A DNA stretch of 64,000 bases from positions 1-64,000 of the forward strand of contig CADBYT010000010.1 of the NCBI GenBank assembly GCA_902798975.1, given 5' to 3'. Origin of the DNA: an uncultured Bacteroidia bacterium. Its GTDB lineage: Bacteria > Bacteroidota > Bacteroidia > Bacteroidales > UBA932. Positions 49,172-60,932 of the stretch are shown here, piece after piece; the stretch's first letter is position 1, and the number at the start of each line of letters is the position of its first letter. The notes under the pieces are model-generated. The model did not search any database. It saw only the letters and a program-made list of their open reading frames with translations, and was not told the origin of the DNA. A program made the position numbers and the translations under genes.

Positions 49172-50509
49172 TCACAGAAGATCGGCGATGATGTCGTCGC
49201 TGACGAACCAATGGTCTTCGGGGATGCGGAGCCGCCCTTCGCCGGTGCGCACCAGGCGCCCGTCCGAGAGCATTTCTGCTGCAGCGGCCGGGTCCAGCAG
49301 CCCTTCCGCCACGCCCCGCGCCGTCCGCAGGCCCAGCATCACCTCTTCTTCCCGCGCCTCCGCCTCAGTTAACTGTTCACTGCCTCCGTCGCAAGCGGCA
49401 ACTGCCTCTGGAAACCGTGCCACCCTCGGCATCGTAAGAGGGAGGGGCCCATCGTCAGATGGGAGGGGTCCGGCGCAGCCGGACGTTTCAGGAGGCAGTA
49501 GGCCGCTTGGACGGAGAGTTGCAGCGTTCCAGGAGCGGGTGTGACCGTCGAAGCTGTGGGCTCCGGGGCCGAGGCCGACGTAGGGGTGGCGGGACCAGTA
49601 GGCGCTGTTGTGGATGGCTACGCGGCCGGGGAGGGCCCAGTTGGATATCTCGTAATGGAGATATCCGGCTTCGCGGAGCGCATCGCAGAGCAGCCGGTAC
49701 TGTGCCGCGCACTGCTCCTGGGAGGCCTCGGCATAGCGCCCTTCGCGCACCATGCGCCCCAGCGTGCTGCCCTCCTCGATACTGAGCTGATAGGCGCTGA
49801 TGTGCTCCGGCCGCCAGGCGACGATTTCCCGGACAGTCTCCGACAGAATGGCTTCCGACAGCTGCGAGAGCCCGAAAATCAGGTCCACACTGATGTTTTC
49901 CACCCCGGCCCGGCGCAGGATTTCAAAGGCCTGCCGCGCATGGGCTGCGTCGTGACGGCGGTTCATCCAGCGGAGGATCCCGTCGTCGAGACTCTGCACC
50001 CCCATGCTGATGCGGTTTACGCCCAGCTCCAGCAGCCCCCGCACATACGCCTCCCCCTTCTCCACGATATCCTCCGGATTCACTTCGACCGTAAACTCGG
50101 AAAACGCCTCCCCGCCGCGCGCAGGCGTCGTGGAGGGCGGAGCGGAAATTGGTTTTTCGGCAAGCCTGTCCGGAACGAAGTGACTCAGGGGGTCCGGGGG
50201 GAACGCCCCACGGTCATGGAGTCCGTCCGCCCGCCGGGCCGCGGCGGATTGCGCCGCTATGGAAGAAACGGCTGCTACAAGCCGGCGCAAAAACACCGGC
50301 GGCAACACACTGGGTGTGCCGCCGCCGATATAGAGCGTATTCAGATCGCGGGTCGCCTCGATCTCGTCCCGCCGCCGGGACGCCTCGGCGCAAACCGCTG
50401 CCGTATAGGCTTCGAACAATTGCGCATCCCGTCCCTGACAGGCGATTTCCGAATAGAAATCGCAATAGGTGCAGAAACTCCTGCAGAACGGGACGTGCAG
50501 ATAAATCAT
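49172..50509 (-). CDS. hemW: HemW-type radical SAM heme chaperone with two repeat insertions
   Basis: The protein is 445 aa; HemW is usually ~375-390. The radical SAM cysteines are C9, C13 and C16 (C-R-S-F-C-T-Y-C), followed by Y-I-G-G-G-T-P-S at 60-67 and V-N-P-E-D near 143. M-G-V-Q-S-L-D-D, H-Y-E-I-S-N-W-A and G-L-G-P-G-A-H-S-F are HemW/HemN-family signatures. The extra length sits in two places, residues ~95-136 (DNA 50102-50227) and a ~33-codon piece (DNA 49401-49499). Both are made of palindromic repeat sequence found elsewhere in the window. HemW inserts heme into proteins; true HemN activity is less likely. It starts one base after its upstream neighbour's stop. Confidence 0.9.
   Translation of the reverse strand: MIYLHVPFCRSFCTYCDFYSEIACQGRDAQLFEAYTAAVCAEASRRRDEIEATRDLNTLYIGGGTPSVLPPVFLRRLVAAVSSIAAQSAAARRADGLHDRGAFPPDPLSHFVPDRLAEKPISAPPSTTPARGGEAFSEFTVEVNPEDIVEKGEAYVRGLLELGVNRISMGVQSLDDGILRWMNRRHDAAHARQAFEILRRAGVENISVDLIFGLSQLSEAILSETVREIVAWRPEHISAYQLSIEEGSTLGRMVREGRYAEASQEQCAAQYRLLCDALREAGYLHYEISNWALPGRVAIHNSAYWSRHPYVGLGPGAHSFDGHTRSWNAATLRPSGLLPPETSGCAGPLPSDDGPLPLTMPRVARFPEAVAACDGGSEQLTEAEAREEEVMLGLRTARGVAEGLLDPAAAAEMLSDGRLVRTGEGRLRIPEDHWFVSDDIIADLL
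49401..49499. repeat. Family C multi-hairpin element inside hemW
   Basis: Outer arms (49402-49415 and 49485-49498) pair. Within are CCCTC-GGCATCGTAA-GAGGG, CCCATC-GTCA-GATGGG and GTCCGGC-GCA-GCCGGAC. The same order and much of the same sequence occur intergenically at 59859-59977, where stem bases are changed on both sides (CCCGC/GCGGG; CCCAACC/GGTTGGG). Length is 99 bases, a multiple of three, so the frame is kept. Confidence 0.85.
50137..50174. repeat. Family B element core inside hemW
   Basis: GCGGAGCGGAAATTGGTTTT and the following TCGGCAAGCCTGTCCGGA match prmC 60361-60397 with only a few differences. It lies in the ~42-residue extra segment of HemW (50102-50227). Its right arm is more worn than in prmC. 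Confidence 0.8.
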
Positions 50510-59761: not shown

Positions 59762-59858
59762 TTTTGCAAACAGTTTGGTTCTGCCTGCAAAGTGACGGAC
59801 ATTTATCCGATTACATTTCCGATTAATCGTTTAATTTTTTTCCGCCTGTCTTACTGAC

Positions 59859-59977
59859 GCCGGCAGGCTGCCCCCCAGCAAAACCGTAGCCACCCGCGGC
59901 TTCGTAAGCGGGAGGGGCCCAACCGCAGGTTGGGAGGGATGAGCGAAGCGAAGTTTTGTCGGGGAGCAGCCTGCGGC
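59859..59977. repeat. Family C multi-hairpin element, intergenic copy
   Basis: Outer arms GCCGGCAGGCTGCCCCCCAG (59859-59878, extending to AAAAC) and GTTTTGTCGGGGAGCAGCCTGC (59953-59974) pair over about 22 bases. Inside lie CCCGC-GGCTTCGTAA-GCGGG and CCCAACC-GCA-GGTTGGG (59918-59934). It ends 4 bases from the prmC stop. See 49401-49499 for the copy within hemW. Confidence 0.85.
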
Positions 59978-59981
59978 GCAG

Positions 59982-60932
59982 TCAGGCGGAAAACCGAACG
60001 AATCGTATTTTTTTGTAGAAATCGGGCAGCGTTTGTACGTTTTTATATCCCGCGGTGCTGAAGACAGCGGCGGTATCGGGCCCGAGCGCCTCGTTGATTT
60101 CGACCAGACCGACCCCGCCCGGCCGGAGAAAACGCTGCGCCCAGCGGGCAATGGCGCGGTAAAAACGGAGCGGATCGTCGTCCGGAACGAAAAGAGCCAG
60201 CTCCGGCTCCCACTCCAGGACATTGGGACGCATCTGCGCCCGCTCCTGCTCCATCACATACGGCGGATTGCTGACAATCAAGTCGAACTGCCCGCCCTCG
60301 AACTCCTGCTCCGTATCGAGGACGTCGGCCTGCAGAAAGGTAGGCGAAGGCGGCGGAAAGGCGGAGCCGGAATTGGTTTTCCGGCAAACCTGTCCGGAAA
60401 ATAATTCCGGGCCGCCCCGTCTGGAAGACTCCGCCGCCTCGACGTTAACCGGGAATTGTTTCCGCGCGTAGTCCAACGCAGTTTCCGACAAATCGACGCC
60501 GACGACCTCGGCATCGCGGATCTCCAGCGCAATGCTCCAGGCAATGCACCCGGAGCCGGTGCAGAGATCCAACACCCGCGGCGGCCGGTCGAGATCCATC
60601 TCCCGCAGCGTCCGGACGGCTTCAGCGACCAACAGCTCCGTCTCCGGCCGCGGAATCAACACCCCCGGCCCCACGGCGAACCGCCGGTCGCAAAACTCCG
60701 TATAACCCAGCACATACTGGATCGGCTCCCCGGCACACAGGCGCGCCAGCGCATCGGAAAGCTCCGCCACCTGTTCCGCCGGCACCAGCGTCTGCGGCTC
60801 GACGATGTGCGTATAATTCGTCACGCCCAGCAGTTCGCGGCAGAGCATCAAAACCAAACCCCTCGCCTCAGGCGAAGGGTACAGGTTCTCGAGGCGGGCG
60901 GCGCCGTCGCGGATGAAATCGGACAGCAGCAC
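59982..60932 (-). CDS. prmC: Peptide chain release factor N5-glutamine methyltransferase with repeat insertion
   Basis: The protein is 316 aa (usual ~280), starting at GTG 60932. It methylates the Gln of the GGQ motif in release factors RF1/RF2. Visible are the N-terminal helical domain, R-P-E-T-E-L-L-V (95-102), motif I L-D-L-C-T-G-S-G-C-I (121-130), V-D-L-S-E and the diagnostic N-P-P-Y-V (222-226). Residues ~167-198 (S-S-R-R-G-G-P-E-L-F-S-G...P-P-P-S-P) are extra and coded by the family B palindrome at 60361-60413. The site lies between beta strands 2 and 3 of the methyltransferase, a surface loop. Confidence 0.92.
   Translation of the reverse strand: MLLSDFIRDGAARLENLYPSPEARGLVLMLCRELLGVTNYTHIVEPQTLVPAEQVAELSDALARLCAGEPIQYVLGYTEFCDRRFAVGPGVLIPRPETELLVAEAVRTLREMDLDRPPRVLDLCTGSGCIAWSIALEIRDAEVVGVDLSETALDYARKQFPVNVEAAESSRRGGPELFSGQVCRKTNSGSAFPPPSPTFLQADVLDTEQEFEGGQFDLIVSNPPYVMEQERAQMRPNVLEWEPELALFVPDDDPLRFYRAIARWAQRFLRPGGVGLVEINEALGPDTAAVFSTAGYKNVQTLPDFYKKIRFVRFSA
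60361..60413. repeat. Family B palindrome inside prmC
   Basis: CCGGAATTGGTTTTCCGG (60367-60384) and CCGGAAAATAATTCCGG (60394-60410) pair apart from GG opposite A at the centre. The first 37 bases match the copy inside hemW (50137-50174). The dapF palindrome (13455-13515) has the same core. Confidence 0.85.

Follow-up and report, generated by a model that had tools for sequence, protein, structure and literature searches.

The window, a 64,000-nucleotide stretch from the draft genome of an uncultured Bacteroidales bacterium (contig CADBYT010000010.1), contains two copies of a palindromic repeat, element A, which belongs to a dispersed family of small hairpin-shaped DNA insertions in a rumen and gut genus of Bacteroidales. 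In the own genome, the 2.09-Mb draft from which the window derives, the copies are dispersed and lie mostly within genes and in frame; the inverted arms flanking the conserved core match within a copy, but mostly not between copies; and sister species differ by presence of the element, by orientation of its core and by coordinated changes of its arms. Element A probably represents short non-autonomous palindromic insertions that are kept paired and flipped by template switching, with the encoded peptide as a by-product.

Element A in the window and in its host genes

One copy resides in hemW (49172..50509, minus strand, 445 codons, Radical_SAM), which remains open through element A and through a different repeat, element B. 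On the plus strand, the left outer arm of this copy (49386..49411) pairs with the right outer arm (49490..49516) and the two enclose the conserved lead-in CCGTGCC with hairpin 1 (together 49415..49442; stem CCCTC 49423-49427/GAGGG 49438-49442), hairpin 2 (49448..49463; CCCATC 49448-49453/GATGGG 49458-49463), followed by AGGGG, and hairpin 3 (49469..49483; TCCGGC/GCCGGA). While the sequence-only reading of the window had confined the element to 49401-49499, the palindrome is longer and, with its imperfectly paired outer arms included, extends by eye from about 49386 to 49516 (49386..49516, plus strand). The second copy, with long outer arms, spans 59840..59993 (plus strand, limits by eye) at the 3' end of a prmC-like open reading frame (ORF), which has prmC-like sequence at its end and the stop codon of which (59982-59984) falls within the right arm; its core (59884..59934, plus strand) includes CCGTAGCC, hairpin 1 (CCCGC 59893-59897/GCGGG 59908-59912) and hairpin 2 (CCCAACC 59918-59924/GGTTGGG 59928-59934). 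That the two copies share the same hairpin order and that their stems differ in a paired manner on both arms had been proposed and is borne out by the sequence, with three hairpins in each copy.

Throughout the family, the conserved core reads CCGTnGCC-hairpin 1-AGGGG-hairpin 2-AGGGG-hairpin 3, flanked by the inverted arms, whereby the core measures about 75-80 nt in window-like copies and the arms roughly 15-36 bp. The folding of both window copies, on either strand, surpasses 200 of 200 dinucleotide shuffles (z -3.8 to -5.3), and when 18 copies of the own genome were folded together with 120 nt of flank on either side, all displayed, by reading, a long enclosing stem of copy-specific sequence. 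A scan of the window with Rfam 15 at the gathering score retrieved only a tRNA and no known structured RNA at element A.

Blastn retrieved 19 matches in the own genome and a covariance model of the core (R1, built from 13 sequences) retrieved 24 at E<=0.01; as an interrupted blastn copy at C1:96025 (L015) is missing from these 24, the own genome holds at least 25 copies. Among the own genome and 100 relatives, element A was detected in 52 of 101 genomes, namely in 51 of 61 of the same genus (own included) and in one of 40 outside it, and was not detectable in the other 10 of the 61. An order-wide sample of 295 genomes yielded matches at 1e-5 in five, which are the own genome, one from a different genus within the family and three that belong to different families, with one congener and one further family member giving no match at this threshold. 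No match was found in a plasmid collection.

Nineteen of the 24 model matches in the own genome are situated in Pfam-supported ORFs, where they are read through without a stop in 16 different genes; five (L103, L105, L107, L109, L110) have no such ORF. According to the Pfam matches, the hosts are an HI0933-like flavoprotein, DsbD, DnaX (two copies), a PUA/SAM methyltransferase, a THUMP-like methyltransferase (two), TrmB (two), a tyrosine recombinase, HemW, PolA, RNase R (RNB), rRNA adenine dimethylase, a YgiQ-type radical SAM protein, RecG, TldD, UvrD/PcrA and a SpoU methylase. As intragenic here means that an open frame was found, gene-breaking copies would score as non-coding and the count is biased towards in-frame copies. 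Both strands and five of the six frames are used in reading the core (17 phaseable of 19 copies examined), and the inserts, seen as open frames, may be translated in vivo. As a raw count without genome background, 11 of the 16 host genes (loci L102-L125) seem to work on nucleic acids (DnaX, PolA, RecG, UvrD, the tyrosine recombinase, RNase R and five methyltransferases); a similar host-gene bias has been reported for repetitive extragenic palindromes (REPs) in the available part of PMC3733652.

The hemW gene retains its Radical_SAM Pfam match despite the insert. The stretch between two conserved motifs measures 216 nt in the window versus 102-105 nt, the commonest lengths in core-less relatives, so that about 37-38 codons have been added and not 33 as originally counted. 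In 80 of 80 parsed hemW loci (of 81; L077 could not be parsed) this stretch, 96 to 354 nt long, is in frame and devoid of stops, and splicing or translational bypass of the insert is therefore not favoured. The core occupies the site in 12 of the 80 loci, seven times in sense and five times in antisense orientation, the latter including the window copy; a thirteenth flagged core (L035; 105 nt, no insert) was discounted. Model R1 gave 18 matches over a set of 80 hemW loci, some at a different hemW site, and in close relatives the arm sequence is, by eye, recognizably like that of the window while the core is reversed. Relatives of the hemW gene are titled, for example, Bacteroidales bacterium, from rumen samples, and Candidatus Cryptobacteroides, the latter at about 50% identity. 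In an AlphaFold model of HemW (32 sequences; mean predicted local distance difference test score, pLDDT, 80.8), both long stretches with a pLDDT below 50, residues 335-373 around element A and 100-132 around element B, coincide with the two inserts. The family explains the odd additional loops that predicted proteins of these genomes contain.

Arm matching and covariation

For 91 of the 92 copies compared first, the left arm matches the reverse complement of the copy's own right side at a level above the 99th percentile of 3000 mismatched pairs. These 92 were taken from 108 matches, and the other 16 comprise six duplicate views, two copies cut by contig ends (L150, L261), six copies that pass (L139, L144, L229, L230 and the second hits in L126 and L159) and two that fail, so that 97 of 100 usable copies pass in total. 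The three failures are L125, the core of which is split by another insertion, the fragment L269 and the second hit in L257.

Between copies, the core is on average 74.6% identical (276 own pairs), while the mean left-arm identity among own copies is 55.5% versus 49.4% for shuffled arms; in two own pairs with 98% core identity, the arms are 38% and 58% identical. Unlike in classical miniature inverted-repeat transposable elements, terminal inverted repeats are not shared among the own copies. The exception within the family is an amplified subfamily in the relative G016 (L211, L214-L222, L224, L226, L227), the members of which share their arms and further flanks; this recent amplification could reveal the transposition unit.

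The sequence-only reading had named further copies that do not keep their pairing, or a lack of further copies, as evidence against it; the covariance-model search delivered further copies, with pairing kept. Over 100 distinct sequences, the proportion of paired cells is 89.6% (shuffles, 76.1%) and the covariation score 0.316 (shuffles, 0.110), in an alignment that was fitted to the model and hence is biased towards the structure. In four of five pairing measures, none of 500 shuffles attained the observed value, and in the remaining one, further pair types (29 versus 25.7), 20 of 500 did so; the covariation score drops to 0.02-0.08 when the partner column is slid by 1-3 positions. Changes on both sides were observed in two of seven pairs of helix 1 and in eight of eight pairs of helix 2, in which 80.7% of cells are paired.

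Such strong covariation, together with a core that looks better conserved than its flanks at several orthologous sites, would be in line with selection on the fold as a feature of RNA or protein that serves the host, be it mRNA structure, a binding site or a useful peptide. A host function is nevertheless very improbable considering that the core is not tied to one orientation, frame or gene (both orientations, five of six frames among 17 phased copies, 16 genes), that no copy was detected in 10 of the 61 genomes of the genus and that the core is present in only 12 of 80 loci at the hemW site. The initial proposal that paired substitutions mean selection on the fold stands in its first half, as pairing does covary across copies, whereas selection is not established because template switching produces paired changes by mutation alone. 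Paired changes alone are insufficient as proof of selection on a fold; covariation resembling conserved RNA structure can stem from templated mutation instead of selection, and covariation in repeats calls for corresponding caution as it is no proof of a functional fold.

Sister species and template switching

Two sister species, G023 and G047, the flanks of which are 79-94% identical at shared sites, provide a natural experiment on the origin of the element and on templated mutation, as they differ by presence, orientation and arms. Among 13 aligned occupied pairs, seven have the same core orientation and homologous arms, four have an inverted core with homologous arms, and two (L248/L260, L240/L262) have an inverted core with unrelated arms. 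Of a further 14 copies left unmatched, 11 pairs could be aligned, L231 and L267 were left out of the query and no counterpart turned up for L236. In three of the 11 (L250/L289, L239/L291 and L249/L285, the last without hairpin 2), both species have the element and its orientation agrees, and adding these to the 13 pairs gives an inverted core at six of 16 readable shared sites, four of them with homologous arms. The others are a cleanly empty site (L253/L292), a core-less palindrome (L268/L288), an internal deletion (L263/L286), a partial element (L269/L284), a complex case with duplications (L257/L293), a pair too decayed to read (L246/L287) and two alignments from which no conclusion was drawn (L244/L283, L261/L290). 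The arms change as well: by eye, a block of about 8 bp has changed in both arms at once at L242/L266, and at L241/L264 the left arm of one species has been extended by the right host flank in inverted form. The pair L240/L262 harbours an identical 79-nt core stretch in opposite orientation, with unrelated arms, at the same place and beside the palindrome TTCCACGTGGAA, which is presumably parS-like.

Orthologous sites thus change both arms at once, extend arms into host sequence and invert the core, which fits the footprints of template switching. According to the available parts of the respective reports, template switching at inverted repeats homogenizes arms and inverts the spacer (PMC8604942), stems in RNA genes can arise and be maintained through template switching (PMC8794818), its published footprints include paired changes of several bases and inversion of the loop or spacer (PMC8604942; PMC8794818) and coding palindromes exist in Nematomorpha mitochondria (PMC6649704). 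Element A resembles these systems in that arms are homogenized, several paired bases change together and the loop or spacer is inverted, events which also there occur partly in coding DNA; as far as these sources describe, however, they concern local repeats in yeast genes, RNA genes or mitochondria, while element A carries the process to many genes as a dispersed family. Copies of the element would be inserted by an enzyme, and out-of-frame insertions would be purged. At the palindrome, the strand would fold back during replication and the polymerase would switch template between the arms, which would keep the arms paired, sometimes extend them into host sequence, render them locus-specific with time and invert the core. 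Template switching between arms is plausibly the keeper of the matching and the cause of the core flips. The element would act at the DNA level, and the inserted peptide, a low-confidence predicted loop in HemW, would be a by-product.

The compared genomes are all draft assemblies, apparently metagenome-assembled genomes, in which a short-read assembler could misplace the orientation of the core, and this is the main caveat for the flips. The arms are short and the cores repeated, so that collapsed inverted arms might mimic an inversion. That the flips are artefacts of this kind is judged unlikely, since at three coding flips, in RsmE, TrmB and a phosphatase-like gene (names by our own reading), the frame is open both ways and since the orientation of the hemW core differs across many separate assemblies, although neither observation is decisive.

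The cleanly empty site bears on the origin of the arms. L253 lies in a methyltransferase gene of G047, the counterpart of which in G023 is empty. Twenty of 59 matched genomes were taken for this site and 19 parsed (L364 was not); all 19 orthologs are in frame and nine of them, 36-42 nt long, have no insert. By reading, the loop is occupied by element A with three different arm pairs in G047, G011 and G004, by element B in G048, G058 and G008 and by another palindrome in G027, with intermediate lengths in G045, G010 and G037. As G011 and G004, relatives of G047, also possess an insert, the site in G023 may have lost its insert just as that in G047 may have gained one. No direct target-site duplication was seen at this single clean empty site; by eye, only the outermost 5-7 bp of the arms look host-derived and may be an inverted host copy. 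An inverted target duplication, with snap-back priming of the left flank as the source of the arms, was accordingly retained for the outer edges only and dropped for most of the arm, the sequence of which is not that of the host at the empty site.

Alternatively, the core might insert into, or replace, existing palindromes, as proposed for IS1272 (PMC5678879), with the arms being the target. In the available part of that source, insertion is tied to stem-loops of unrelated sequence, which is the point of likeness; IS1272 encodes a transposase, however, for which element A is too short, and the clean empty site has no stem-loop by eye. Where G047 has the element at the prmC site, a palindrome without a core is seen in G023, its arms measuring 11 bp by eye, and the unrelated arms at L240/L262 and L248/L260 would also suit pre-existing target palindromes. 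This route is nonetheless quite unlikely, as no palindrome is visible by eye at the clean empty G023 site or in the nine short orthologs and the core-less palindrome could just as well have been left behind by a deletion (compare L263/L286).

Several observations weigh against a family of insertions maintained by template switching. The unrelated arms at the same site (two of 13 pairs) are not easily obtained by switching between arms. By eye, the inner arms of related copies are alignable and some paralogues share arms (L131/L223, and an inner arm ACTGCCTCCGG), as do two G016 copies; and the amplified G016 subfamily has common arms in 13 of 20 fetched copies, 15 when two shorter relatives are included. 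Neither of the two arms that could be traced for origin recurs elsewhere in its genome: the arm of the G047 site is confined, within 3 mismatches, to the two arms of that element in G047 and is absent from G023, and one G016 arm has no occurrence elsewhere in the G016 genome within 3 mismatches, which leaves these two arms without a surviving donor there. No transposase or target duplication has been identified for element A, and its mobility is something we infer. A more far-reaching, and rather unlikely, variant is a mobile palindrome that rewrites itself, building its own 25-36-bp arms by fold-back synthesis at insertion or during later replication, with no fixed ends, with arms specific to each locus and with routine core flips; if so, multi-codon in-frame changes would be fed into core genes.

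Mobilization, known systems and element B

A possible, if on balance doubtful, explanation is that element A is a REP/REPIN-type element moved in trans by Y1 transposases resembling REP-associated tyrosine transposases (RAYTs), with GTRG before hairpin 1 as the recognition tag. Presence of Y1_Tnp and of element A agrees in 54 of 61 genomes (45 with both, nine with neither, six with element A only, one with Y1 only; Fisher p 2.6e-6, a statistic that ignores kinship), and GTRG precedes hairpin 1 in 81 of 94 listed start sequences, 36 times as GTAG and 45 times as GTGG (six of 100 are unlisted). The tag is internal to the arms, however, and an unpaired terminal GTAG, as in REPs of the GTAG superfamily, is lacking. 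REPs of the CGTC superfamily are characterized by an unpaired CGTC tag, an 8-9-bp stem and a CCA tail in the available part of PMC3733652; by uncounted inspection, the right end of element A reads CGTC, CGTT, AAGTT and others, and the GTC of CGTC usually pairs with the left arm. No RAYT flanked by the repeat was seen: 32 fetched Y1_Tnp loci (98 kb, flanks up to 1.5 kb; many further Y1 matches lie outside this set) contain no match to element A, which, with only about 0.4 chance matches expected, shows lack of enrichment and no more. The sequence-only reading had suggested a search for such a transposase, and the own genome does contain two Y1_Tnp matches just over the cut-off, but each is located beside element B (L020, L021). 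A role of Y1 transposases in moving element A is unproven.

Element A is best read as a protein-coding palindromic element that would work like Rickettsia palindromic elements (RPE) or intragenic REPs, the family itself being new; a literature search, the coverage of which lacked most subscription papers, found no report of such elements in Bacteroidetes. As described in the available part of PMC10969869, RPE are palindromic repeats of about 150 bp that lie in frame in many unrelated genes, a likeness that element A shows in 19 of 24 own copies and 16 genes. RPE stem from another phylum and were compared by description, not by sequence; three hairpins, locus-specific arms and core inversion, as in element A, are unmentioned in that part of the account. 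A REP, in turn, is a hairpin of 20-40 bp with a terminal tag that stays unpaired, and most REPs are intergenic, although they occur inside DNA repair genes of several species, and some families, as in the GTAG/CGTC superfamilies, are inserted inside larger palindromes, with the CGTC type reported in Bacteroidetes (PMC3733652, as far as available); the latter arrangement resembles element A, which differs by its internal tag-like GTRG and by 19 of 24 own-genome copies being intragenic. In-frame palindromic elements have been described mainly from Rickettsia, and element A extends them to housekeeping genes of gut Bacteroidales.

Element B is read through in hemW at 50110..50235 (plus strand), with 46 own-genome matches counting itself, and has a partial match inside the prmC-like ORF (60344..60399, plus strand). 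It adjoins both own Y1_Tnp genes, as a REP would beside its RAYT; among 30 Y1 loci of relatives, the long element-B pattern occurs in none and a short one in three. Near the position of element B in the window, at the first variable site of hemW, locus L022 contains a third in-frame repeat, with the peptide GGVPPEPPASLRSGG occurring twice. Nested insertions are seen as well, with other stretches lying within the hairpins of element A itself at L247 (G023, KsgA-like), L125 and L291.
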